Positions 1 to 49,077 of a stretch of DNA of 64,000 nucleotides are shown here, piece by piece. The notes beneath the pieces are model-generated. The model was given only the letters and a program-made list of their open reading frames with translations. It was not told the DNA's origin and made no database searches. Source of the stretch: Propionibacterium acidifaciens DSM 21887. Lineage in GTDB: Bacteria; Actinomycetota; Actinomycetes; Propionibacteriales; Propionibacteriaceae. How positions within the stretch are numbered: position 1 is the first letter of the stretch; each line of letters opens with the position of its first letter. The stretch lies in contig NZ_AUFR01000009.1 of the NCBI RefSeq assembly GCF_000426605.1, positions 1-64,000 of the forward strand. The letters are read 5' to 3'. The position numbers and the translations under genes are program-made.

Positions 1-2
1 TC

Positions 3-320
3 ACCGAATCAGGCCTTCTCGAGGGTCCGGGCGAGACCACGACCCACGATCCGGGTTCTTCCTCCGTGCCTCACATCGCGGACAAAGGGTATGTCGGGAT
101 GGGCCTGATCACCCCTGTCAAGAAACTCCCGGGTCTTCCCCTGTCCGAGGCCGACAAGAACTTCAACCGGGCCATCGACCGGATCAGGTGGAGGATCGAA
201 CAAGTCATCGCCCACCTCAAAACATGGAAAACCCTCAAAACCGGTTATAGACGCCCCATCGACGCCCTCCCGGACGCCATCACAACAATACTCGGAATCA
301 TATTCACCTACACCCTATGA
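3..320 (+). CDS. IS5-family transposase, C-terminal part (5' end outside window)
   Basis: The frame is already open at the window edge and ends at TGA 318-320. The translation contains ADKGYVGMG, a run resembling the end of the DDE catalytic domain (ADKNFNRAI, RIRWRIEQVIAHLKTWKTL), then a GYRRPI tail, typical of IS5-family DDE transposases. The N-terminal half is not visible, so whether this copy is intact is unknown. The stop lies inside a terminal inverted repeat (311-329), so this is the 3' end of the element. Its insertion truncates the ABC-transporter remnant that ends the siderophore operon. A matching N-terminal half in the same orientation is at about 20704-20990. Confidence 0.8.
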   Translation, partial: TESGLLEGPGETTTHDPGSSSVPHIADKGYVGMGLITPVKKLPGLPLSEADKNFNRAIDRIRWRIEQVIAHLKTWKTLKTGYRRPIDALPDAITTILGIIFTYTL

Positions 321-329
321 ATAAGCCTC
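311..329 (+). repeat. Right terminal inverted repeat of the IS5-family element
   Basis: CACCCTATGAATAAGCCTC. Its reverse complement begins GAGGCTTATTCATAGGG, which recurs at 20704-20720. Related ends (GAGGCYTATTCA or GAAGCTTATTCA) bound the two small elements at 32715-32793 and 40239-40316. The sequence changes abruptly to ABC-transporter coding sequence at 330. Confidence 0.8.
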
Positions 330-20703: not shown

Positions 20704-20990
20704 GAGGCTTATTCATAGGGTTGATCCAAGTTGTTGTCGGTGATTTCGCGGAGGCGTGTCGCAGAAGACGAAGGGCGGCCTGCCCCGAGATAATTAATGC
20801 GTGACCAGAAACAATCAAGGAACAGGCCGTGGACCGCATGCTATCACACGACTGCCCCGGGCCCGGATGCAAGACCTGTACCGGAGAATCCACGCGGCGG
20901 TCAATGGCGACCTGCCGCCGGCCGGTTCACGGCGACTCGGCCCCCACCAAGGCATCCGGCCCGTTCTGGCCAGTCTGCGACTCTTCTCGC
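20704..20990 (+). pseudogene. Left end and N-terminal fragment of an IS5-family element
   Basis: 20704-20722 is GAGGCTTATTCATAGGGTT, matching the reverse complement of the terminal repeat at 311-329 at 18 of 19 bases. About 97 bp inside it, a GTG at 20801 opens a frame containing RARMQDLYRRIHAA and SRRLGPHQGIRPVLASLRL. This resembles the helix-turn-helix start of IS5-type transposases. The similarity then stops near 20990 and no catalytic domain follows. It could be the missing half of the element seen at 3-320 or an independent truncated copy. 20991-21152 contains no recognisable feature. Confidence 0.6.
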
Positions 20991-32714: not shown

Positions 32715-32793
32715 GAAGCTTATTCACAGCACGACAGGACGGAGGTCTGACAGGGGGAAGCACTCCTGCGAACAACTCTTGTGAATAAGCCTC
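32715..32793 (+). mobile_element. 79-bp non-autonomous element with IS5-like ends, just downstream of brxL
   Basis: It begins GAAGCTTATTCACA and ends TGTGAATAAGCCTC, an inverted repeat of about 14 bp with one mismatch. It is flanked by a 3-bp direct repeat TGG (32712-32714 and 32794-32796). The ends match those of the IS5-family remnants at 311-329 and 20704, but no coding sequence fits inside. It ends 24 bp from the brxL stop. Confidence 0.7.
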
Positions 32794-35061: not shown

Positions 35062-37572
35062 TCAGAAGTCGAAGTCGCTGGTGAAGGTGCGCACCAGAGT
35101 GAATCTGGCCTTGTCCGGGTATGGCCGTCGTTCCGATGCGCCGACCTGCTCGGACAGGCGCAGCTCGACCGTCCGGCCGTTGGCGTCGTCGGCCTCCTTG
35201 CTGAGCATCAAGGTGACCGGGAAGAGGCGGTCCCGCTCCTCGGGCGAGGTCTGCGAGCAGGAAACCCGCACCTCGTTCGAGATGAGGACGTCATCGGCGT
35301 AGAGACCGGCGATGAGGGTGCGCCCCTTCACCTTCTCGCTGACCGGCTCCTCCTGGTGGAGCACCACCGTGATCTGCCCGGTGGTGATGCGATCGGTCTG
35401 AGCCATGATCCTGACGGCGACCTGCCGGGTGTCCGAGGTGCGGCGCTTGTTGATGGCGAGCACCGGCACGACGATCTCCTGCAATGCTGCCCCGCCGTGC
35501 ACGTAGCGCGCCCCCGAGCCGGCCATGCGCAGCCGGTGGATCGACTTGGGCACCTGGGCCTCGACCCGGCCCGCCAGTCCGAGCTGAGCGGGGGTGAAGG
35601 TGGTGAAGGCCGGGCTGCGCTTGAGACCGCGGCCCAGCACGAAACGATGATTCGCGTACAGCAGGGCATCGGCGTGCGGCTTCTCGGTGAGGTACTGCGA
35701 TTCGTCCAGGGGCGTGTCCTGGTGGAGGAAACCATGGTCGGCGGTGATGAGGACGTTGTTGACGTTCGCGTTGGCGAGTTTCTTCACCAGCCTGATCAGC
35801 TCCTCGATGGTGTCCTCGCAGGCCTGGAACACCCTCGATTCGGTGGTCGGGTCGTCCCCCGTTGCGTCGATCTGGTTGTGGTAGAGGTACAGCACCCGGT
35901 GCGCCTTGACGAGCTCGCGGGCCTCACCGGGCCGCAGGCGGGTGAAGTCGGAGGCCTGGACGGCGGTGCCGCCCACGGCCTGAAGGATGCGGGCGCGGTT
36001 CTTCGTCCCGTCGGAGGGGCCGCCGTCGACCTCGACGAGCCCCTTGCTCCCCTCTGCGAGAGCCAGGGTCTTGTGCGGCAGGAGCGCTGCCATGCCCAGT
36101 TGGGTGTACGAGGGCAGTGCGCCCAGCATCGCGGTCAGTTCCGCGCTGAAGCGGTCCTCCTCGCGGATGCGGCGGGCGAGTTCCTCGGCCACGTCGTAGC
36201 GCAGGGCGTCGGAGACGATGACGACGATCTTGTTGCCCCGGTGCAGAACCGGACGGACCCGCTTGTTGTAGAACGAGGTGGCCGCGGGCGCCTCATCGAC
36301 CGTCCAGCGGTCCATGGTGTCGACCTGCTCCTGCCAGGCGTTCCCGAGGGGCCCCAGGTAGGAGCCGGTGTACAGCGCCTCGACCCTCTGCCTGAGGGAT
36401 CCCAGTGGCTCGTCGAGGACGGCCCTGCCCGCGTGCACGATGAACTGGCGGTAGGACTGGTCGATGGCGAACCATTCCTCGACGTAACGGCGGAATCCCT
36501 CTGCGGGCGAGCCGATCGAGGGGGGCAGCGCCTCGATGCGGGTCGACAGCGTGGAGGCTGCGGCGATGGCTTGATAGTCCTGCTCGTACTGCTGGTACCA
36601 GATGCCCGTGGCGCGCCGCCCCACCGTTCTGCGCACGTCCTGGTCCGTCATGGTTCGCTGTTCGACGCCCGTGGCCAGGAGCGCGATGATCCGCTGGTCC
36701 ACTTCCTCGAAGGTGAAGCGCTCGGCGAGGGCGGGCAGGTTCAGTTCAGCGACGCGGTCTTCGATGGCGAGTTCGTCGGCGGCCCGGCGGGCCAGGGCCC
36801 GGTGGGTGTCCGCGAAGCGGACGTCGTTGCTCCACATGCTGAAGTCCCGGCCGATGTTGCGGTACTCGCCGGGCGTGGGCGAGGCGAACTTCTCCCAGGC
36901 CCGCGCGAAGAGCCACCGGACGAAGTCGTCGACGGATGGCGTCTCGGCGCCGTAGCCGTAGATGTCACGGGTGCCGGCCCAGTGGAAACCGGCCAGGCCG
37001 AGCCCGGTGATCTCGTCGATCCATGTCGACTCGCCCGAGGCGTTCTCCGTCAGCAGATTGCGCCAGATGACATCCAAGGAGTTCCCTTGGCAGCCGATGA
37101 CGGTGGCGACCATCTTGGCAGCGATGTCGGTGGCGTCGTCACCGTCCTCCAACCGGGCCTTGAGGGCGGCGACGCGTGATTCCTGCCTGAAGAAGGCCGG
37201 GTACTGCTCGGCGATCTCGCGCAGTGCCGGACCGCCGCCGAGTTCCTGGACGACGAGCGAGGCGGGGTCGGCGGTGAAGGTTCCGTATGCCAGCTCGAGG
37301 TCGAGCAGCCAGTTCGCCACGGGATCGTCCGGAACGGGCGAGGGGCGGTGGATGAGGAATTTGCGCGTCGGCTCGGCGGCCAGTACGCGCCGCTTGATCG
37401 CGAATTCGTTGCCGTCCACGCGGAGCACGGTCACGCCCGGCAGATCAAGATCCTCGATGCAGCCGTTGTCGTAGTCGCCGTCCGGGTCGTTCCAGATGAC
37501 GATCCGGCCGGCCTCCCCCGGGGCCTCGAAGCGTTCGCCGAGCTGGCGCTGGATGATGGACAGGGCGCTCAT
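35062..37572 (-). CDS. pglZ: BREX-1 alkaline-phosphatase-superfamily protein PglZ
   Basis: 836 residues. The metal-binding alkaline-phosphatase-like core is visible as IVVIVSDALRYD (about 449-460) and LITADHGFLHQD (about 605-616). The N terminus carries FEAPGEAGRIVIWNDPDGDY, the opening typical of type 1 PglZ. PglZ is essential for BREX defence and is thought to act as a metal-dependent phosphodiesterase or nuclease with BrxC/PglX. The start ATG overlaps the stop of the small upstream gene (ATGA). Confidence 0.96.
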   Translation of the reverse strand: MSALSIIQRQLGERFEAPGEAGRIVIWNDPDGDYDNGCIEDLDLPGVTVLRVDGNEFAIKRRVLAAEPTRKFLIHRPSPVPDDPVANWLLDLELAYGTFTADPASLVVQELGGGPALREIAEQYPAFFRQESRVAALKARLEDGDDATDIAAKMVATVIGCQGNSLDVIWRNLLTENASGESTWIDEITGLGLAGFHWAGTRDIYGYGAETPSVDDFVRWLFARAWEKFASPTPGEYRNIGRDFSMWSNDVRFADTHRALARRAADELAIEDRVAELNLPALAERFTFEEVDQRIIALLATGVEQRTMTDQDVRRTVGRRATGIWYQQYEQDYQAIAAASTLSTRIEALPPSIGSPAEGFRRYVEEWFAIDQSYRQFIVHAGRAVLDEPLGSLRQRVEALYTGSYLGPLGNAWQEQVDTMDRWTVDEAPAATSFYNKRVRPVLHRGNKIVVIVSDALRYDVAEELARRIREEDRFSAELTAMLGALPSYTQLGMAALLPHKTLALAEGSKGLVEVDGGPSDGTKNRARILQAVGGTAVQASDFTRLRPGEARELVKAHRVLYLYHNQIDATGDDPTTESRVFQACEDTIEELIRLVKKLANANVNNVLITADHGFLHQDTPLDESQYLTEKPHADALLYANHRFVLGRGLKRSPAFTTFTPAQLGLAGRVEAQVPKSIHRLRMAGSGARYVHGGAALQEIVVPVLAINKRRTSDTRQVAVRIMAQTDRITTGQITVVLHQEEPVSEKVKGRTLIAGLYADDVLISNEVRVSCSQTSPEERDRLFPVTLMLSKEADDANGRTVELRLSEQVGASERRPYPDKARFTLVRTFTSDFDF

Positions 37573-37907
37573 TCGGCGTCTCCCGCCACGGCATCGAGGT
37601 GGGCACGCCCCGCATCGGTGAGTCGGTAGCGCTGGAAGCGGCTGTTCGGTTTGTCCGGGATGGTCCTGGCCAGATAGCCCTGTTCGACGAGCGGCAGCAG
37701 GTGCCGACGGTAGTTCCCATAGGCATCACTAAGACCGATCGTCGTCAACAGGTCGGCGCGGGAACAGGGCCCGGCGGCGGAATTGACGAAGGCGACGATC
37801 GTGCGCAGGGGCCGCTCGGGCGAGGACAGATCACGCTTGAACTCGAGGGTCTTGCCCTCGACATCGGCGACCCGGCCGTCCGGGTCGAGGATCAGCAGTC
37901 CGTCCAC
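37569..37907 (-). CDS. Shrunken AlbA/Schlafen-type protein: N-terminal stub fused to C-terminal winged helix
   Basis: 112 residues from GTG 37907, with AGGAGG spaced 7 nt. The first 50 residues (GKTLEFKRDLSS, LRTIVAFVNSA) match the start of an AlbA_2/Schlafen-like ATP-binding domain, which normally runs on for more than 150 residues. Here, at about residue 46, it passes directly into CSRADLLTTIGLSD, LLPLVEQGYLARTIPDKP and YRLTDAGR, the winged helix normally at the end of such proteins (about 400-550 residues). This is an in-frame internal deletion. The product could still bind DNA. It is coupled to pglZ by ATGA, so it may be kept as a regulator of the operon or simply be a relic. Confidence 0.7.
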   Translation of the reverse strand: MDGLLILDPDGRVADVEGKTLEFKRDLSSPERPLRTIVAFVNSAAGPCSRADLLTTIGLSDAYGNYRRHLLPLVEQGYLARTIPDKPNSRFQRYRLTDAGRAHLDAVAGDAE

Positions 37908-37925
37908 GGCTGCACCTCCTCATCC

Positions 37926-38336
37926 TCACGAGCGGTGGCGGGCAGGGCGCTCATGCCCGCCACCTCCATCATCCTTCGTCGGGCCGGCCCTGTGCTCGAG
38001 CTCCCGCAAGCTCCGTAGGTCCGCCTCGTCCGCTTCTTGGGCGTCGAGCGCCCGTCGCGTCCGGTCGTAGTGCTCGTAGCGGTCCTCGGCGAGGAGCGTT
38101 CTGCGCACGGTATGAGCGCCCTCTACACGAACCATTAACTCTGAGTTAACAGTCTCCGCCGCGACCTCGCCGTCCGCGAGGACTCGCCTGACGATCTGGG
38201 CAATGTTCGGCACCGATGTGCCGTAGAGCCCGGCCATCTCCGCCTGGGTGAGCCACACCGTGCCACCCGAGGCCCGAAGCTGGACGTGACTGCCGTCATC
38301 GGCCTGGTAGAGGATGATCTCCCCGCCGTTCACCAT
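37926..38336 (-). CDS. Truncated RhuM-family protein
   Basis: 136 residues. The N-terminal half (GEIILYQADDGSHVQLR, GTVWLTQAEMAGLYGTSVPN, EVAAETVNSELMVR) is the DNA-binding-like start of RhuM/virulence-associated proteins, usually about 330 residues. After residue 75 the sequence switches to LLAEDRYEHYDRTRRALDAQE, resembling the C-terminal coil of that family, so the central part is missing. RhuM homologues are frequent passengers of restriction and BREX loci, with no established reaction. Function after the deletion is doubtful. It lies 18 nt before the AlbA-like gene. Confidence 0.65.
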   Translation of the reverse strand: MVNGGEIILYQADDGSHVQLRASGGTVWLTQAEMAGLYGTSVPNIAQIVRRVLADGEVAAETVNSELMVRVEGAHTVRRTLLAEDRYEHYDRTRRALDAQEADEADLRSLRELEHRAGPTKDDGGGGHERPARHRS

Positions 38337-38419
38337 TCCCCCTCATGCTCGTGCTCATCCGGACCGGCACACCAGTGGCTCTCATTCCGCTTGACTGCTG
38401 GAACGTCTTTCCTGCTCAT
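38330..38419 (-). CDS. Possible 29-residue upstream peptide overlapping the RhuM start
   Basis: ATG 38419 opens MSRKDVPAVKRNESHWC and ends at TGA 38332-38330, overlapping the RhuM start (ATGGTGA). The position fits a translational-coupling leader for the truncated RhuM gene, but there is no homology and the length is short. Confidence 0.25.
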   Translation of the reverse strand: MSRKDVPAVKRNESHWCAGPDEHEHEGEW

Positions 38420-38454
38420 CGATTGCCCTCAGCCTCTCTTGCCTCCCCATCGCC

Positions 38455-40638
38455 TTACAGATCGGCTTGGTCATTATTATCGGACGTCAATCCGGCGATG
38501 TCCTGCTGCCAGTCATCCGCAACGCTCTTCCAGTCAACGTCTCGCCTCTTCTCCCCTGACCAGACACCCCAATAATCAGGATCGTCAGATTTCGGACGGT
38601 ACTCCTCCGGAATTTCATCGATTTCGACCAGCACTGGCAGTTCGGAGGCCCATCCGAGCAGTACGGCCTGCCGAGAGGGCAGGGAGGGGAGATCGTGCAG
38701 CAAGCCACTCAGACTGTCAGGAAGCAGCCTACTCACCAGTTCTTGATCCTTGTCATTGCTGATTCGATGGAGCAGGAAAGAGTTACACTGGGACAGCACC
38801 GTTGGAGAGAGCTCGCTTGGCCGCTGGGACGAGAGAACCATCCCCAAACCGAATTTTCTGCCCTCTCGGGCGATCTTCTCGAAGACCTTGCAGCAGACTG
38901 CGGCAACGGATTGATTGTCGGGGTCATCACGATAACGCCTGACGAAGGTGTGCGCCTCTTCCATCACAAGAACCGTCGGCAGGGTCTTCCCACCGTTGAG
39001 TCTCCTGTAGCGCTGGAGCGCTTCGAGCGTCACTCGGGCGATGACGGCTGTCACCAAGTGCACTATTTCTGCGGGGACGAGGGAAAGATCGATGATGGAA
39101 ACAGGGACAGCTGCACTTCCATCGTCCCCGATGTATGACGCGAGCCAGTCTGAAAGGGACTCCTCTGAAATATTTCCGCCAGAGCCCGCGATCTGCTTCA
39201 TCCGGGCATCCGAGAGCAGGGCCTTGATTCGTATGAGCATCGTCTCGACATAGTCTGAAACACCCATGAGCTCGGCATTGGCCTCCACGCTGCGCAGCAA
39301 TTGGTCACCCGTGAAGGGCAAGGGAAGATCAGCATCAATCGGGAGAGCATCGGAATCGCTACCACCGAATGCTTCGTAAGCCATCTTCGCAGTGCAAAGA
39401 AGAATATCAACCTCTTCCTTACTCAGGTTACAATTAGGGTGAGCAGGCTGACGAGAAGTTAACAAGGTGTTCATATTGTTGGAAAGTGATTCGATCATTT
39501 TGACTTCCCACTCCGAGAAAGAGCTCTGGACGGTGAGACCTTCTTTCCACTTCTCAATCATCTCAAAGAAGCCTTTTGCCTTGGGGAAACCCGACCACGG
39601 CGTTCCAGCATTTTTGGCCATTTGGATCAGACTCACGATCGTCCGCAGGTATCTTCTCATCTCCTGCCGAGAAGAAGTGTTTTCATCAACAGATCCATCC
39701 TTGACCGTCCTCAGCGCTTGCACCAAGGTGGGACGTTGGGTCTTCGCTGTCGCCTGGGCGAATGCGCTCCATTCCGCACTGTTCCAGAGCCAGAGCGGCA
39801 CACGGAGTTGATCGGCTCCTTCCCCAGTCTCAACGGCGAATCGACGCACCCCTTGTATGTCATCGAACGCATGCGAGTACTCTCCGTTGGGGTCGAGGAT
39901 GATGAACCTCGCATTCGGATTCCTCTCATCCCCGCACTCGCGTTGAGCCGCCTCAAGAGACCAGCGGATGAGACCGGCGACCGAACAGGATTTTCCGCTT
40001 CCCGTGTTCCCCAAGACGGCGAGATGACGACCGAACAGACGATCCGGGTCGATTCTGACCTCAGCGTTCGCAGCGAGAGGGCTGGTGCCGATACGCACCC
40101 GTCGATTCACCCCGGACTCAACGATCGCTCGCAGCTGACGTTGAGTGGGAAGCAGGACCTCATCACCGACTGCAGGGTAGGTGCTCATCCCTCGGGTGAA
40201 GCTATAGGAATTTTCATTTTCTGGTTCACTGGCTTGTTGAGGCCTATTCATCGGGGTTGGATCACGATCGCCATCCCCAGGCACAACGTCGTCTGCAGAC
40301 GCTGCGAATAAGCCTCGTTGCAGTGTACCCAGCGGGTTGAGACTCAGTTTGCGCACCGGGTACGGGAGATCAACGAGACCGAAATCCTGCATTCCCCTGC
40401 GTTTGGGGAACTGGGAGGGCTGAACCGTGATCCATTGGATCTGGCCCACCATGTAGCCATCACTCGTGCCGACCAAGACGTAACCGTTGAGACGGGGGAA
40501 GGGTCTGGGGATGCCCGTGTTGAGAGCGATGTCCTCTGGCGCTTCGATGTCCAACGAGACTCTGATCTCATCCGAGGAGACGAAGTCAACCGTTCCGATG
40601 CGCAGGGCACCAGCATAAGCAATCGGTGTTGCACTCAT
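38455..40638 (-). CDS. HerA-like hexameric ATPase paired with SIR2 (antiphage module)
   Basis: 727 residues. Walker A is VLGNTGSGKS (about 209-218), Walker B is TVLVMEEAHTF (about 552-562) and SSQRPSELSP is a HerA/FtsK-like sensor segment. HerA translocases paired with SIR2 NADases form large complexes that deplete NAD+ on phage infection (Nezha-type and SIR2-HerA systems). The start overlaps the SIR2 stop (ATGA). GC content is visibly lower than in flanking BREX genes. Residues about 108-134, just after the N-terminal barrel-like region (LNPLGTLQ), are encoded by an inserted 78-bp mobile element plus a 3-bp target duplication. The frame remains open throughout. Confidence 0.9.
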   Translation of the reverse strand: MSATPIAYAGALRIGTVDFVSSDEIRVSLDIEAPEDIALNTGIPRPFPRLNGYVLVGTSDGYMVGQIQWITVQPSQFPKRRGMQDFGLVDLPYPVRKLSLNPLGTLQRGLFAASADDVVPGDGDRDPTPMNRPQQASEPENENSYSFTRGMSTYPAVGDEVLLPTQRQLRAIVESGVNRRVRIGTSPLAANAEVRIDPDRLFGRHLAVLGNTGSGKSCSVAGLIRWSLEAAQRECGDERNPNARFIILDPNGEYSHAFDDIQGVRRFAVETGEGADQLRVPLWLWNSAEWSAFAQATAKTQRPTLVQALRTVKDGSVDENTSSRQEMRRYLRTIVSLIQMAKNAGTPWSGFPKAKGFFEMIEKWKEGLTVQSSFSEWEVKMIESLSNNMNTLLTSRQPAHPNCNLSKEEVDILLCTAKMAYEAFGGSDSDALPIDADLPLPFTGDQLLRSVEANAELMGVSDYVETMLIRIKALLSDARMKQIAGSGGNISEESLSDWLASYIGDDGSAAVPVSIIDLSLVPAEIVHLVTAVIARVTLEALQRYRRLNGGKTLPTVLVMEEAHTFVRRYRDDPDNQSVAAVCCKVFEKIAREGRKFGLGMVLSSQRPSELSPTVLSQCNSFLLHRISNDKDQELVSRLLPDSLSGLLHDLPSLPSRQAVLLGWASELPVLVEIDEIPEEYRPKSDDPDYWGVWSGEKRRDVDWKSVADDWQQDIAGLTSDNNDQADL
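40239..40316 (+). mobile_element. 78-bp non-autonomous IS5-like element inserted in frame in herA
   Basis: It begins GAGGCCTATTCATCGGGG and ends GCGAATAAGCCTC, imperfect terminal inverted repeats. The left 24 bp closely follow the IS5 remnant end at 20704. It is flanked by GTT on both sides (40236-40238 and 40317-40319). Length 78 plus duplication 3 equals 81 nt, or 27 codons, with no stop in the herA frame. Removing it would join TLQ to QASEP. Confidence 0.72.
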
Positions 40639-41987
40639 GACTCATCACCCGGCCCGGCCCCCTCCCGGCCTTTCTCCGCAGAAGGCTCTTCGGTCCCGAA
40701 TCTCTGGCGGAGGAGCTCTGCCATCCGGAAGGTGGTGCGGTCTATCGCAGGTTTGGGAAGATAATTCTGTGTAAGCTTCGCGAGGTCAGCCAGATCCGGG
40801 CCAACCAGTAGGCTCATCTGCGCGCTTCGACCAATATTTTCATAGAATTTGATGATTCTGTTCGATGCATCATCATGCGAGATGATGACCACATGCGTCG
40901 ATGGGATGGTGAGCATGTCCCGGAGGACTCTGTTGATGTGGTCGTCGCCGAAACTGTACCCGTAAGTGACAAGGGTGCTGTTTGGACGGCACAGAGCTCC
41001 TGCGAGATCGCGGAACATTTCCACGTAGGGGTACCCGGCGGTCTCCCTGTCCTTGCTCGAGTTCGGATAGATCATGAGCTGGAAGGCCGAGGCGCCGTTC
41101 AGCCCGGGAGCTTCGAGATATGGTTCCAGTGATTCTGCTCCGAACGGCAGACCAACCCGTCTGATGTCTTCCCCTGTCGTCACCCAGTCCACCGATCCAT
41201 GCAGCTTGGTGAAATGAGCAACGCCTTCGAGGAATCGTGGTTCTCCTTTGATGCCGGGAGGATTGTAGTGCATGTCAAGATTCAGTCGTGATGACCGGAA
41301 CACGGGTGCCAGCGTTCCGACGAAACGGTCCAGCAGATGCATGCCGGCGAGTTCAGCTCCGGCCTCAATCAGGCGATCGTAGTTCGTGGTGAAGATGTGA
41401 AGACGCTCACGAGGTCCGCCTCTGCCGGCAAAGCTCATCAGGAAGGACACGAGAACATTGAATGCCTGTTCCCTCTTCTCGCTCACCGCGGTAGCTATCC
41501 CACGTTCGCTAGTCAGTATGCTTTGCGCGAACTCATTGATGGTCATGTCGATCTCTGAGCGGAGATCATCGGTTCGGTCATGATCCAGTATTTCAAGACC
41601 TCGTAGCAGTTCATTGGCCACGCGCAACGCATCCTCGAGGTTCTCCCCGTTCCTCGACATGCGCTCAGCAGATTCTTTTGCGGCTTTGCTGATCTTGTCT
41701 CCACAAGTCTTGAACTTCGGCGTGTTCATCCCCGTTGCAGACTTACCTACTGCAAGGTGATGGACAGCGTGAGTGAGGCCAGACCCGGCGAGGAGTGACA
41801 GATGCTCGGACTGGAACAGTGAGGAGAGCCATGGTTCGATCCTCTTGCGAAGGTCTGGAACGCCAAGGTTCTCACCGAACCAGGATGACCGATTATCGCT
41901 GGTCACCCGAAAGCCATCTTCTCCATTCTGCTTGAACCGGATCGGCTTGGAGTCCTCACGAACCTTGAGAATGTTCTCAGCAGTCAT
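40635..41987 (-). CDS. SIR2-domain protein (NADase-type) of the SIR2-HerA module
   Basis: 450 residues from ATG 41987, which overlaps the pglX stop (ATGA) and follows GAGGAGAGC inside pglX. The NAD+-binding motifs of defence SIR2 domains are present: LLAGSGLTH (about 62-70), FTTNYDR (about 197-203), TKLHGSVDW (about 257-265) and YGYSFGDDHIN (about 336-346). Defence SIR2 domains hydrolyse NAD+ to abort infection, usually activated through a HerA or Argonaute partner. It sits directly after pglX and before herA in the same coupled operon. GC content falls in this segment, suggesting later acquisition than BREX itself. A start 45 nt upstream is possible but lacks a ribosome site. Confidence 0.9.
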   Translation of the reverse strand: MTAENILKVREDSKPIRFKQNGEDGFRVTSDNRSSWFGENLGVPDLRKRIEPWLSSLFQSEHLSLLAGSGLTHAVHHLAVGKSATGMNTPKFKTCGDKISKAAKESAERMSRNGENLEDALRVANELLRGLEILDHDRTDDLRSEIDMTINEFAQSILTSERGIATAVSEKREQAFNVLVSFLMSFAGRGGPRERLHIFTTNYDRLIEAGAELAGMHLLDRFVGTLAPVFRSSRLNLDMHYNPPGIKGEPRFLEGVAHFTKLHGSVDWVTTGEDIRRVGLPFGAESLEPYLEAPGLNGASAFQLMIYPNSSKDRETAGYPYVEMFRDLAGALCRPNSTLVTYGYSFGDDHINRVLRDMLTIPSTHVVIISHDDASNRIIKFYENIGRSAQMSLLVGPDLADLAKLTQNYLPKPAIDRTTFRMAELLRQRFGTEEPSAEKGREGAGPGDES

Positions 41988-44900
41988 TTCTTGCTCTCCT
42001 CGGGCTGGAGCGGGTTGACGGGCCATGTCCACGTCTCGACGTCGTGACGTTTCTCCTCGATGGCCTTGATTCTGACGAGGGCTTTGCCGAAGCGGAGGTA
42101 GTTGACCAGGACGCCGTCGTCCAGGTCAAGATCGAGGTTCCGGGTGGCCAGCGGGTAGAGGATGTCGCGCTCGTAGTCCTCGCATTCGAGCAGGTCCTTG
42201 CGGTACTTGTCGGCCCTCTTGAGGTTCGCACTCCTATCGGATCGTTCCAGTTGGTCGATCTCTGCACGGAGCTTGGTCTGGAATTCGCGAAGGTACTCGT
42301 TGAGCACGGTGTTCAGTGTCGCCGGGGTGTAGCGGTGCAGGTAGATCAGCGCGTTGAAGACGCCCTTGCCATCGGGGCGCGAGGAGAACATCCAGTAGAT
42401 CGGGCGGTTCGAGTAGCGCTTGCAGTGGTCCTTGTAGAAGTCCCTCAGGAAGTACCGTCGCAGGGGTTTCCCGAGAACGGATTCGATGCATCGGACGTTC
42501 TCCTCGAGATTCGCCTCCCCGAAGGAGGCCTTGAGGAAGGTTCGGAAGCGGGCGACGATGTCATCCTCGAACCAGTCGTCCTGTGTCACGGGGATGACGT
42601 TGTCGTCGTCCGGCGCGAAGGTGGGCTCTGGTACCCGTGCCACGTAGTCTTGGATCGTCTCGCCCTGACTGGCCAGGATGAGCCCGGGTTCATCGAGGCT
42701 GTAGCGGCCGAACATGCAGCCCACGGCGTAGGAGATGAGATCGCGGACCGCATCGGCCGCGAACAGCTCGCGGTATTCAGCCTCGCTACGTTCTTCGCCT
42801 TTGGCGGGGGCATAACGGAACCAGGGGTTCGAGGTCAGGGAGACGCGGTTGAGCGGAACCTCGGTCGGCACCTCATCCTCCAAGCCGTAGACGCAGGTCC
42901 AGTAACGGTTGTTCTCTTCCTCCAGCTCTTGGGCCTCACGGCCAGCACGAGTCGAGTCATTCCACCAACACTCAAGAGCACCCTCGAGAGATTCATTGGG
43001 CTGAGTGCACTCCATCAGCGGCGAACCGACGAAGCCCCAAGAGAGCTCATATGAATTCCAGTCCCCACGAGACAACTCAATAAGACCATCAGCAATTGAC
43101 GCACTTTTGGAATTATCATCGGGCACGCCGAAGTCAATGATGGGAAGTTCCGCAAGTTGACCGACTTCGAAGTGCATGGTTGCCGCAAGCGACTCGAGAA
43201 TCCTCTGAGTAGCAGTCGAATTCAACAGCGCAAGCCTCTCAAGATCCGAGCCTAAAATGACTGGCGCCACATCGTTCGGAATGAATCCTTCACTCGTAAA
43301 ACGGAAAGAAGGCTCACCGCTCGACACTCGAGACCACGAGATCGCCGGCTTGAAGTAGGAGTCGATGTTCTGCGGGCGAGACTTCTGCTTCCCTCCCGCG
43401 TCACGGAACTCTTGAATCTCGGCGCCGTCATGCTCCCAGTTCACCACGTACTCCTGGTTGCCCCACCACTTGCGGAAGGCGCCGCCCTTGAGGTGGGGGA
43501 ACCACTTCGCACCGCTGGCGGCGGCCTCCTCGCGGGATGCGGCGGTGAAGCACGACTTGTCCCGGGAGACCTCGAACCAGTGGCGCAGGAAACGCAAGTT
43601 GTCTCCAGTCTGGAGACCAACCCTCGGGGCGGCGATCTCGCCCAATGGGCTGCCCTCGGCGAAGACCCTCAGCATGGCGGGCGAGAGCCAGTAGGCGATG
43701 CGAGCGCCTGGGACACTGGCGAGTTCCCGGGCTGTCAAGATGAAGCGGGGAGCGCTCCCCCTCACCGCCTCTGCGAGCAGTTCCTCTTTCTCCGCTTCGG
43801 AACTCCCCTCGACCAGCCTGAGGTAGCAGGACTGTCTCTCAGGAGAGCGCCCCTGCTCGAGGATGAAGGCAGTGGTGGAGACCACCTCGCCCCCGATGGA
43901 GTCGAAGGCCCTCTCCCCCAGGTGCGCCATCGTCACCGGCGGGGCCGAGCTCAGGATGCGGCGTCGCAGCTCCTCGAAGGATCCGAGGAACATCCAGCCC
44001 TGCATCGTGATCATCGCGACCAGCCCGTGGCCGCCCTCGGCCAGCGCGAGGCACCGTTCGATGAAGGCGGCGAAGAGATCGGCCTTGGCCGCCGGGTGGT
44101 GCGTCTTCCCCCAGTCCGACAGGACCGCATCCATGTTCTTGCTGCCCATGTACGGCGGATTGGTCACCACGACGGCGTACTCGCGGGCGAGGTACTCGGC
44201 CTGGCACAGCACCTGTTCGGCGCGTTCTCTCAGGTTCGCACCGACCAGAGTGTCAGAGTCGAGATCTTCCGCCTGCGCCTTGGCAACTGCCAGTGTCTCG
44301 GAGTCGGGGCTGATCAGTGAGCCCAGCATGTCAGCATGGCGGAAGCACTGCCAGAAGTCCTCCTCGGCCCGGCGGTCGCCGCCGGCGCTGACGAGGCGGT
44401 CCAGCTCGTCCGGGGTGAACTCGGCCGACTCGATGACACGGATCCGGGGCTGGACGTGCGTGCGCAGGAAGCGGCGCTGCCGGGCCCGGGCCTTCATCAT
44501 GAGCGCGAACGCCGCGAGCGCCCCGGCGCGGCCGTCGATCTCGGTGCCGCGCAGATTGTGGGTGAGGATCAGCTCGGGGATCTCGGAGGGCGCGTAGCCC
44601 TCCTCCTCGTAGATCTCGTAGAGCAGGTCGAAGGCGTAGGTGAGCATGTGCCCCGAACCGCAGGCCGGGTCCATCACCGTCAGCTCCTCGGGCCGCTCGA
44701 TCCGCAGGAAGTCCTCCTCGCCGGTCGGCTCGATGTAGTACTCCATCCGACCGCCCAGGGCCGACTCGGGGTGGTTGAGCAGCCACAGACGGCCAACAGA
44801 GTTCTGCACCAGATAGCGGACGATCCAGTCCGGGGTGAAGAGCTGGGTCGCGGCGGGGATCTCGTCGGGGCCGGCCTTCTTGTTCCTCTTGAAGCCGGCG

Positions 44901-45565
44901 AAGACCTCGTTCTTGCGTTCGGAGATGTAGAACTGGTAGAGCCAGCCGATCACCTCGACGTCCTGGCAGTCCTCGACCGTGAGGGTCTCGACCGCCGTGG
45001 CCCGCACCGAGCCGTCGGCCAGCAGGTTGCCGGGCATGAGCAGGCTCGTGAAGCTGCCGTCGGCGGCGAACATGAAGGGCATGGCCCGGTGCCAGAAGGC
45101 GCAGTGGGCGGCCAGGATCAGCCCGTAGGCCTCGCCCTGCGCGTCGTGGCTGGTCAGGGTTCCGTCGAGCAGGCCGGTGATGCGTTCCACCTGCGCCGGG
45201 CGGGTGAAGACATCGGGGTCGAACTCGCCGCGTTTGGCCGCCGCCAGCACTGCCGGTTGGCCGCTCGCTCGGCCCGCCTCGGGCGAGACGACGGGCGTGG
45301 GCGTGCACCGGTTGGCGTCCATGAAGCGCAGGGCGACGATCCGGTTGAACCATGCGTAGGCCTGCTCCTCGACGATGCGCCGTCGCCCCTCCCGGCCCCC
45401 GCCGTGGCGGGCGATGGCGTCCTCGAGTTCTCCGACCGCACCGGGGGCCTCGACCCGTGCGGTCGAGGCCGGGGCGAGCGCGGCCATGAGCCGGGCCTCG
45501 ACCTCTGCGATGAGCCCGCTGCGGGCCGAGGCCGCGAAGGCTTCGAGTTTCTTCGTGTCGATCAC
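41984..45565 (-). CDS. pglX: BREX-1 adenine-specific DNA methyltransferase PglX
   Basis: 1193 residues. The SAM-binding motif is MDPACGSGHML (about 296-306) and the catalytic motif is VVTNPPYMGS (about 463-472), N6-adenine type. PglX methylates one strand of a non-palindromic site to mark self DNA. It carries the target-recognition region in its C-terminal half. Around 42950-43330 (about residues 745-870) base composition becomes distinctly AT-richer, as expected for an exchanged target-recognition segment. The start overlaps the brxC stop (ATGA). No homopolymer phase-variation tract was seen. Confidence 0.96.
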   Translation of the reverse strand: MIDTKKLEAFAASARSGLIAEVEARLMAALAPASTARVEAPGAVGELEDAIARHGGGREGRRRIVEEQAYAWFNRIVALRFMDANRCTPTPVVSPEAGRASGQPAVLAAAKRGEFDPDVFTRPAQVERITGLLDGTLTSHDAQGEAYGLILAAHCAFWHRAMPFMFAADGSFTSLLMPGNLLADGSVRATAVETLTVEDCQDVEVIGWLYQFYISERKNEVFAGFKRNKKAGPDEIPAATQLFTPDWIVRYLVQNSVGRLWLLNHPESALGGRMEYYIEPTGEEDFLRIERPEELTVMDPACGSGHMLTYAFDLLYEIYEEEGYAPSEIPELILTHNLRGTEIDGRAGALAAFALMMKARARQRRFLRTHVQPRIRVIESAEFTPDELDRLVSAGGDRRAEEDFWQCFRHADMLGSLISPDSETLAVAKAQAEDLDSDTLVGANLRERAEQVLCQAEYLAREYAVVVTNPPYMGSKNMDAVLSDWGKTHHPAAKADLFAAFIERCLALAEGGHGLVAMITMQGWMFLGSFEELRRRILSSAPPVTMAHLGERAFDSIGGEVVSTTAFILEQGRSPERQSCYLRLVEGSSEAEKEELLAEAVRGSAPRFILTARELASVPGARIAYWLSPAMLRVFAEGSPLGEIAAPRVGLQTGDNLRFLRHWFEVSRDKSCFTAASREEAAASGAKWFPHLKGGAFRKWWGNQEYVVNWEHDGAEIQEFRDAGGKQKSRPQNIDSYFKPAISWSRVSSGEPSFRFTSEGFIPNDVAPVILGSDLERLALLNSTATQRILESLAATMHFEVGQLAELPIIDFGVPDDNSKSASIADGLIELSRGDWNSYELSWGFVGSPLMECTQPNESLEGALECWWNDSTRAGREAQELEEENNRYWTCVYGLEDEVPTEVPLNRVSLTSNPWFRYAPAKGEERSEAEYRELFAADAVRDLISYAVGCMFGRYSLDEPGLILASQGETIQDYVARVPEPTFAPDDDNVIPVTQDDWFEDDIVARFRTFLKASFGEANLEENVRCIESVLGKPLRRYFLRDFYKDHCKRYSNRPIYWMFSSRPDGKGVFNALIYLHRYTPATLNTVLNEYLREFQTKLRAEIDQLERSDRSANLKRADKYRKDLLECEDYERDILYPLATRNLDLDLDDGVLVNYLRFGKALVRIKAIEEKRHDVETWTWPVNPLQPEESKK

Positions 45566-48500
45566 AGCGAGACCTGCTTCCCGGAGTCGATGGCCTCGTG
45601 CAGGATGGCGCGCAGCTCCTCGAGGTAGGCGTCGGCGTCGGCGGTGGTGCGCAGCAGCCTGGCCCGGGGCCTCGGCAGGCGACGGATCGGGACGATGGGC
45701 CGGGGCGGGGCGGCCGGCTCGTCAGAGCCCTGCTCCCGGTGCGGGCGGGCCGTCTCGACGAGTGAGAGCAGTTCGGTGTAGCCGTCCTCGTCGAAGTCGT
45801 TCGCGATCTGGCGGATGAGCGGCACCGAGGCGGCATCGGCGATCCTGACCTGGACGCTGCTGCCCGCATCTTCGACCCCGGCGCGGGCCTCGTCGGTGGT
45901 CTCGGCCCAGGCGGCGCTGCCGCGGATGGCCGCCACCCGTGCGTTGACCACGGCGGCGGCCTTCTCGCGCTCGTCGTCGAGCACCCGGCCGAGACCCCTC
46001 CGCAGCGCCGCTGCGGTCTCCTTGAGCCGGTTGATGCCCTGCCCGCGCAGGATCCGCGGATCGTCCAGCAGGGCCTGGACCCTCTCGGCCTGCCCGTCAT
46101 GGAGATAGGCGAGATTGTCGCGGTTGGCGCCCACCAGCCGCATCGCGTCGTCGTAGATGCCCTTCTGGGGGCTGGCCAGGAAGTGGCGCACCGGGTCGAT
46201 GGCGTTCTCCTTGGCGTCCAGCAGATCGTCCGCATGGGCGGGTAGTTCCTCGAGGTACCACTCGGTGGGCTTCTCGAGGGTCCGGTCGAGCAGAGCGAGG
46301 GGCTCGTCGAGCAGCCTCATGAACGGGTACGTGCCGGCGTAGGCGTCGTGCGTCGTCCGCAGATCGCGGCGCTCCTCGGCAAGGGCACTCTTGACTTGGG
46401 ATGCCAGCTCCGAGGGATCGGCCGGCAGCTCGCCCCGGGAGAAGAACTCCTGGGCGAAGGCGCGAACGCGCTGCACCGCGGCCGGGTCGAACCGGCGCTG
46501 CCGGGTCACGACGATGCCTGCGTGCTTGTGACCGTTGCACAGGGCCTCGGGAAGCTCGGTGCGCTTGAGCCTGCGCCCGTCCAGGGAGAGCGCGACCTGC
46601 GATGTGGTGCACAGCCTGGTGACGGCGCACAGGATCGCCGCCAGCGGCCAGCCGTAGGGCTTGTCCTCGAAGCTCTCCACGATTCCCCTGACGGTGACGG
46701 TGGCATTGAGCCGGTGCTGGGCGGTGATGAAGGCCACCACCTCGTCGGCCGCCGGCTGGAGCCTGTCCTCGCCGCGGTCGATCATGGCGGGATCCTCCTC
46801 GGCGAACCGGGTGATGTCCGGCTCGGCGTAGTTGATCCCGTCCAGGAGCGAGAGCTGGGTGTAGGTGCGGTCGACGAGCTGGGCCATGGCCTCGTCGATG
46901 CGGTCCTTCGGGCCGACCGCCCGCACATTGATCTGGGCTCCGTTGATGATGAATTCGGCCCGTTCGATGGCCTCCCTGACCCGTCCGACCAGCTCTCGGC
47001 GGCGTTCCTGGTTGAGTCGGCTCTTGGCGTCGAGGATGTGGCGCTGGGTCTCGGTCAGCGACGAGGAGCGCCGGCGCCGCGCATATTTGTCCGTCTGCAC
47101 GTGCAGGCGCAGGTCGGCGTACAGCCGCGGGTCGTCGGGCAGCAGCACCCGTACCTCGTCGCGCCCCATGGACTGCGCCATGACGACCTCGCGCGGCTGC
47201 CCCAGCGCCGGGGAGACGTAGTGGACGGCGAGCGGATGGGCGCGGCTGTAGAGGACGTCGTCAAGCCGCAGCTCGTACTTGAAGTCGCGTCCGGTCGGCG
47301 TGTGGCGGAAGGTCGTGGACTTCACCACGTCGTCACTGATGATCGTGGACAGGAGCTTGGAGACCTCCGCCGGGCCGATGTCGGTGTTCTTGATCTCCTG
47401 CTCGATCTCCTGCTCCTCGTCGGTCAGGTATTCGTACGCGGTACCGGCGCGCTGCACATAACTCCGCCCCTCCAGCAGGTCGAGGGCCCCGGTGATCCTG
47501 CTGGTGAGCCCGGCGATGTCCTGGTCGAAGCGGTCGTAGAGCAGCACGGTGAGGTTGCGGGCCGTTGCGGTGAAGCCGTCGACGTATTTGACGAGGAACA
47601 GGGCCTTGAGCAGGCGGATCGCGATCGTGGAGGTCTCGGAGCCGGAGGGCAGCTGCTTCTCGGCCTCCAGGATGTTGCGGATCGCGGCGGCCTTCACGGT
47701 CTGACCGATGCCCGAGAACATGAGGTCGAAGGGCGCCACGGCGCCGACGGGCTCGTCCGCGAGCTCCTTCGCCACGTCCTGGATGACGCCCAGCATGGAG
47801 CGCTCGCCGACCGAGGCGTGGCGGCCCTCGAACACGTTGTGCCCCGACAGGCCGACCAGCGCCGCCTGGAAGAGCGGGAACTGGTAGGGCACGAAGGGAT
47901 AGCTGCCGGTGAAGTGCTCCCGGCCCTGATAGTTGCGGTAGGTCTTGGCCCCGTCCGCGAAGTCGAACAGGGTGCGGAAGTTCGCGCGCTGGGCGTCGTA
48001 CAGCGCGTCGAGCTCGGCCTCGCCGTCGGCGTTCTTGCCGAGCAGGCGCTTCTCGATGACCTCCTCGACATCGCGGCTGGTCAGTTTCATGCGGGTGGCG
48101 AAGCGGGCCTGGATCTTGGAGAAGTCGTTGGCCTGCCATGTGGTGCGGTCGCCGATGACCCCGTCCATGTCCTCCTGGCTGGTGACGCACACCCACGCCC
48201 TGCCGCCGCACTTCGTGTTGAGGGATTCGACGATGGTCTGGAGGTTGAGCATGAGTTTCGTGTCGGAGCCGATGAACTGGCCCACCTCGTCGGCCAGGAA
48301 CAGCAGCCGACGATCCGCGGGGCGCTCGGCCAGCCACTGGGCGACCTCGTCGGCGAAGTCCTCGATGGACAGGGTGAACCGCTCCTCGTAGCGGGCGAGG
48401 ATGTTCTCGGTGGGCGGCTCCCCGGTCACCTTCGCCCAGGCCTGCGTGACATTGCGCTCCTGCAGGATGCCCTCCTCGCGGCCCTGCTCCCAGGGCACCG

Positions 48501-49077
48501 AGGCGATCTCGGCGAAGGCCTCGCGGAAGCGCCCCAGCAGGCCGCGGCGGTCGAGGTCGCGTTCGAAGCGGGCCACCGACGGCTCGCCAGAGTAGTAGCC
48601 GCGGGCCTCGTTGAACACCTTGACGAAGACCTGCAGCAGGGCGTCGGTCTGGTTCTTGTCGATGAGCGGCGCCTTCTGGTCGATGTTGAACAGCAGGCAG
48701 GTGGCGGGAATGCGCGCCACCCTCGCCAGCGAGGCGGCGAGCATGGAATCGCCCTCGGCCTTGGCGGTGAAGGCGTCGACGACCGACCCACGAGGATGAT
48801 CCTGGCCCGGCACATCGCCCAGCAGGTGGGCGAGCATCTTGAGCAGGTGCGATTTTCCGGAGCCGAAGAAACCGGAGATCCACACGCCGTTGCCGCCGCC
48901 GTAGACCGGGGCGGTGTAGGCCTCCAGCAGATCGGACAGGGCGGCGGCGGTCTCGCCGGTGAGCACGTACTCGTCGATCTCGGTCGCCAGATGCTCGGCG
49001 TCGTCGGCCTTGATGACGCCCTCGATCGGACGGGCGATGTCCTTGGCGAAGATGCTGCCGATCGTGACGTCGCTCAT
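45562..49077 (-). CDS. brxC: BREX ATPase BrxC
   Basis: 1171 residues, the family's usual length (about 1200). An N-terminal P-loop GFFGSGKSHLLK (about 64-75) and Walker-B-like RLLFLADEVGQF identify the ATPase domain. A long, largely helical C-terminal part follows. BrxC is an Orc/Cdc6-related AAA+ protein essential for BREX modification and exclusion. The start overlaps the brxB stop (ATGA) and its own stop overlaps pglX. No frame disruption was seen. Confidence 0.96.
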   Translation of the reverse strand: MSDVTIGSIFAKDIARPIEGVIKADDAEHLATEIDEYVLTGETAAALSDLLEAYTAPVYGGGNGVWISGFFGSGKSHLLKMLAHLLGDVPGQDHPRGSVVDAFTAKAEGDSMLAASLARVARIPATCLLFNIDQKAPLIDKNQTDALLQVFVKVFNEARGYYSGEPSVARFERDLDRRGLLGRFREAFAEIASVPWEQGREEGILQERNVTQAWAKVTGEPPTENILARYEERFTLSIEDFADEVAQWLAERPADRRLLFLADEVGQFIGSDTKLMLNLQTIVESLNTKCGGRAWVCVTSQEDMDGVIGDRTTWQANDFSKIQARFATRMKLTSRDVEEVIEKRLLGKNADGEAELDALYDAQRANFRTLFDFADGAKTYRNYQGREHFTGSYPFVPYQFPLFQAALVGLSGHNVFEGRHASVGERSMLGVIQDVAKELADEPVGAVAPFDLMFSGIGQTVKAAAIRNILEAEKQLPSGSETSTIAIRLLKALFLVKYVDGFTATARNLTVLLYDRFDQDIAGLTSRITGALDLLEGRSYVQRAGTAYEYLTDEEQEIEQEIKNTDIGPAEVSKLLSTIISDDVVKSTTFRHTPTGRDFKYELRLDDVLYSRAHPLAVHYVSPALGQPREVVMAQSMGRDEVRVLLPDDPRLYADLRLHVQTDKYARRRRSSSLTETQRHILDAKSRLNQERRRELVGRVREAIERAEFIINGAQINVRAVGPKDRIDEAMAQLVDRTYTQLSLLDGINYAEPDITRFAEEDPAMIDRGEDRLQPAADEVVAFITAQHRLNATVTVRGIVESFEDKPYGWPLAAILCAVTRLCTTSQVALSLDGRRLKRTELPEALCNGHKHAGIVVTRQRRFDPAAVQRVRAFAQEFFSRGELPADPSELASQVKSALAEERRDLRTTHDAYAGTYPFMRLLDEPLALLDRTLEKPTEWYLEELPAHADDLLDAKENAIDPVRHFLASPQKGIYDDAMRLVGANRDNLAYLHDGQAERVQALLDDPRILRGQGINRLKETAAALRRGLGRVLDDEREKAAAVVNARVAAIRGSAAWAETTDEARAGVEDAGSSVQVRIADAASVPLIRQIANDFDEDGYTELLSLVETARPHREQGSDEPAAPPRPIVPIRRLPRPRARLLRTTADADAYLEELRAILHEAIDSGKQVSL

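Follow-up and report, generated by a model that had tools for sequence, protein, structure and literature searches.

A 78-bp IS5-type MITE lies in frame within the herA gene of a SIR2-HerA locus in Propionibacterium acidifaciens

A SIR2-HerA gene pair inside a BREX-like cluster

The window, a stretch of 64,000 nucleotides of P. acidifaciens DNA, carries on its minus strand a herA gene (38455-40638) that encodes a DUF87/HerA motor protein of 727 residues (Pfam DUF87, E 2.5e-21; PADLOC HerA PDLC04098, E 2.8e-254) with a 27-residue insert at about residues 108-134. The Walker A motif GNTGSGKS and the other invariant blocks are kept. Next to herA, on the same strand, lies an apparently intact gene for its SIR2-family partner (40635-42032; PADLOC SIR2 PDLC04079, E 8.5e-162), and in loci of Psychrobacter, Xylanibacter and Mangrovibacter herA likewise follows a member of this SIR2 family. 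Judged from the genes alone, the adjacency of SIR2-domain and HerA/DUF87 genes places the pair among the SIR2-HerA systems. The solved SIR2-HerA complexes (8wld, 8wod, 8j4u and 8sub) represent the same fold and the same partner pair, with chains that are only about 20% identical to this HerA over the structural alignment.

The two genes are located between those for PglX (41984-45565) and PglZ (35062-37572), in a BREX type 1-like cluster that also contains BrxC (45562-49077), so that positions 35062-49077 of the window hold one defence system nested in another. The gene ends overlap at 40635/40638 and at 41984/42032, which suggests that the SIR2-HerA and BREX genes form one operon. Two small frames lie between herA and pglZ, at 37569-38336; one matches a Fic-like C-terminal domain (PF21247), while the frame at 37926-38336 has no Pfam match and resembles a truncated protein, and they are perhaps remnants of another gene of the defence island.

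Ends, target duplication and empty site

The initial annotation had placed a 78-bp IS-derived element within herA at 40239-40316, and these limits proved exact. One terminal inverted repeat is GAGGCCTATTC (40239-40249, plus strand), while the other is GAGGCTTATTC (40306-40316, minus strand; GAATAAGCCTC as read in the window); the two match at 10 of 11 bp, and the single mismatch also separates the first of them from the ends of the resident IS, to which the second is identical. The element is flanked by a perfect target-site duplication, GTT at 40236-40238 and again at 40317-40319, so that both the repeats and the duplication are found where they had been described. At 78 bp, it has no transposase. 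When the full window was scanned for inverted repeats of 11 bp with at most one mismatch, delimiting 50-120 bp and bordered by identical 3-bp flanks, three places only were returned, of which two (32715-32793 and 40239-40316) belong to the same MITE family; the recurrence of this type of element in the genome and in a sister species is more telling than this statistic. The other window copy has 79 bp, a TGG/TGG duplication and no long reading frame spanning it.

Element and duplication together add 78 + 3 = 81 nt to herA, namely exactly 27 codons with no stop in the frame used, which bears out the in-frame gain that had been annotated (some 27 residues from residue 108, within the N-terminal region). 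The inserted residues are RGLFAASADDVVPGDGDRDPTPMNRPQ, with a margin of one residue at the ends. Since 81 is divisible by three and this copy can be read without a stop in two to three of its six frames, an open fusion is not improbable once it lands in a gene.

The comparison with HerA proteins that lack the insert, which had been proposed as a check, agrees with an insertion. The segment is missing from all 29 aligned homologues, and thus no close homologue carries it without terminal repeats; the loop at this site is short and differs by several residues among the 29. In the PADLOC PDLC04098 alignment, residues 140-712 of the protein fall on positions 110-685 of the profile, an offset of 30 residues before residue 140. 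The best homologue in the genomes of 197 relatives comes from another genus of the same family (G036) and aligns in two blocks, residues 2-107 and 143-713, that are separated by only 24 nt, the insert region being skipped. When the flanks are joined without the element and one GTT, HerA measures 700 instead of 727 residues, the gap total against this homologue falls from 41 to 14, a drop of exactly 27, and the loop that results (GTLQQASEPENENSYSF) is equal in length to its counterpart (GILSAIPTRPLTESYSF). At E <= 1e-150, P. acidifaciens is the only one of 395 genomes of the class with a HerA homologue; the three other genomes of the genus gave no HerA match and provide no same-genus empty site.

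The resident IS and the MITE family

The near match to a local IS5 end that had been reported corresponds to two places in the window, 20704-20714 (plus strand) and 329-319 (minus strand), which both read GAGGCTTATTC and are ends of a multicopy IS. In particular, 20704-20778 (plus strand) is the left end of the resident IS5-family element, with the terminal repeat in common with the MITE and 13 matches in the genome, while 1-329 (plus strand) comprises its right end and the 3' part of the transposase gene, with 10 matches. Matches to the IS ends are often found at contig ends, as expected since repeats break assembly; this holds for many of those to the left end. The only complete copy found (C1:272646-273565) has 920 bp and ATT on both sides, a 3-bp duplication. 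The transposase of another copy, on contig C10, matches DDE_Tnp_4 (E 5e-16) and HTH_Tnp_4, and annotated relatives of the IS include the IS5-like element IS1373 of Streptomyces. The transposase of IS5 type (DDE) and the length within the 0.8-1.0 kb range assign the IS to the IS5 family, with an NCBIfam IS5 match that lies under its cut-off.

The herA element belongs to a family of 12 elements of 78-83 bp in the P. acidifaciens genome, with eight more in one sister species (G002), as counted, not exhaustively, through their end patterns; eleven of the 12 were found by a two-end pattern, and the twelfth is a copy at C8:78912 whose first base differs. The two-end pattern found no elements in two other genomes of the genus (G001 and G003), nor did the same pattern read backwards, used as a control. 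With a slightly stricter end pattern applied to 57 genomes, elements were present in P. acidifaciens and in the sister species only (none in the 55 others). A BLAST search of the herA element against its own genome returned two more copies, on contigs C8 (78912) and C1 (about 350109); these closest siblings are only 71-74% identical to it, and the source copy was not found. Phage and plasmid collections gave no match to the herA copy. The cores split into several sub-families, while the ends are common to all. Perfect duplications, each of exactly 3 bp (GTT, TGG, GCA, AAA, GAT, TAT or ATC), border seven of the 17 distinct copies read, against a chance expectation of about 0.3, and none of the 17 has a longer one. 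In the sister species, about 340 bp separate two elements of this type (C55:2567-2645 and C55:2989-3067).

Terminal inverted repeats, a duplication of constant length, several unrelated sites and the absence of a transposase, with ends that match those of an autonomous-type element, identify the family as MITEs. Compared with the resident IS, an IS5-family element of the DDE_Tnp_4 type with IS1373-like relatives in Streptomyces, the MITE has the same GAGGCTTATTC ends and a duplication that is likewise of 3 bp but lacks the transposase, and has little in common with it beyond the ends. The common ends and the duplication length suggest that the resident IS mobilises the MITE. Taken together, the family copies, the IS ends and the empty homologues support the annotated non-autonomous, IS5-derived insertion, whose MITE origin is settled as far as sequence allows.

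As regards coding potential, the frame used in herA is interrupted by stops in most other copies, and a 79-bp copy, which adds 82 nt (79 + 3), would put a gene out of frame. Apart from the copy at C1:350110, which sits in mutually overlapping open frames of 265 and 355 codons that are candidate genes at most, no other copy examined is spanned by a long reading frame. Among the copies examined, herA is the only recognised gene known to host one. Adaptation of the family to intragenic insertion is thus not indicated, as the other copies mostly contain stops or shift the frame and lack long spanning frames. The copy at C8:78911-78989 seems to provide the last eight codons and the stop (RLIHSACG*) of a 174-residue frame, which has a lipoprotein-like start and no Pfam match and is a putative gene at most.

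The insert in HerA and its interpretation

In an AlphaFold2 model of HerA, residues 110-142 have a pLDDT of about 31 and no secondary structure, and they lie between strands 94-108 and 145-149; the model is modest (mean pLDDT 69, from 18 sequences) and too shallow for the loop to be positioned within the hexamer, and part of the low confidence in the insert comes from its having no homologues. In a Foldseek search, the model falls among the solved HerA chains of SIR2-HerA and DUF4297-HerA complexes. The insert is probably disordered in the real protein, as an excursion from a loop that would belong to the HAS barrel, and its residues are likely to be floppy and tolerated. The suggestion of protein domain innovation in the initial annotation is not upheld: the insert is predicted to be disordered, it is missing from every homologue found, no coding is conserved across the copies, and a single recognised gene hosts one.

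The element, its duplication, its family, the IS ends, the empty site in homologues and the open frame are directly observed. The reading that we favour, with a probability of roughly 85%, is a tolerated MITE insertion that is in frame by chance and was mobilised in trans by the resident IS. The transposase of the resident IS5-family element would have moved the MITE into a GTT target in herA, with duplication of the GTT; as the 81 nt keep the frame and contain no stop, HerA would be translated with 27 extra residues, which would form a disordered excursion at a point where two strands of the barrel-like N-terminal region are joined by a loop of variable length. That the insertion persists would then be due to its having little or no effect on fitness at this site. 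HerA function has presumably been retained, with the proviso that defence genes can decay while still open.

The main rival to a tolerated excursion is partial impairment. The insert may hinder the docking of SIR2 or the formation of the hexamer and so blunt the SIR2-HerA system in part or in full, leaving a gene on its way to becoming a pseudogene; we regard this as possible but rather unlikely. In the related HerA-DUF4297 complex, the effector docks on the N-terminal HAS barrel, and defence is weakened when the assembly interfaces are mutated (PMC11291478); the insert is modelled between two N-terminal strands. However, herA outside the insert and its SIR2 partner gene both have full-length open frames and strong family scores, and the motor motifs look intact, so that there is no direct hint of blunting; the length of the loop also varies naturally among homologues. 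The same loop variation would favour a HerA lineage with an ordinary long loop, in which the 11-bp inverted repeat and the GTT pair arose by chance. This can practically be dismissed, as elements of matching size and ends occur in multiple copies, 3-bp duplications recur among them, the homologues lack the segment and the excess is of exactly 27 residues.

At the other extreme, the 27 residues could by now be a functional HerA surface that alters SIR2-HerA assembly or phage sensing, the element-derived segment having changed partner binding, target sensing or evasion by phage inhibitors. Mobile DNA would in that case have reshaped a defence protein in situ. It would fit a frame that is still open and a segment that projects from the fold in the model, but the segment occurs in one genome only and in no homologue, its peptide is not conserved in the other copies, where the same frame mostly contains stops, and its predicted order is low; both the exaptation and the resulting functional surface are hence quite improbable. 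A tolerated insertion thus remains the preferred reading, and the herA case alone does not change the picture of protein or defence-system evolution. Its value lies in a clean and well-delimited in-frame fusion of a short mobile element to an actinobacterial immune protein for which empty-site homologues are available, thus providing an insertion/no-insertion pair for the tolerance of the HerA N-terminal loop.

Rickettsia palindromic elements (RPEs) are short non-autonomous repeats that lie in frame within protein-coding genes, with at least one product (gmk) that is still active (PMC2229807, PMC10969869). The herA element resembles them in its in-frame, stop-free insertion into a conserved gene, and it adds a further host group and a defence gene to what had been observed in Rickettsia. 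RPEs have about 105-150 bp, occur in genes in many copies and encode a conserved peptide, whereas the MITE family has 78-83 bp, IS5-type ends, 3-bp duplications and one copy known in a recognised gene among those examined, with neither a conserved peptide nor repeated in-frame insertion into several genes. A conserved coding function across the family, as in RPEs, is ruled out by the stops, the frame shift of the 79-bp copies and the lack of any other recognised host gene. Terminal inverted repeats, target duplications and in-frame gene fusions are also known for ERIC, Correia (107-bp form) and YPAL elements (PMC2229807), from which the herA MITE differs in family, ends and hosts, being confined, within the species searched, to two from a single genus. 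In-frame fusion of MITEs to genes is therefore an already established phenomenon, of which the herA case is a clear new example.
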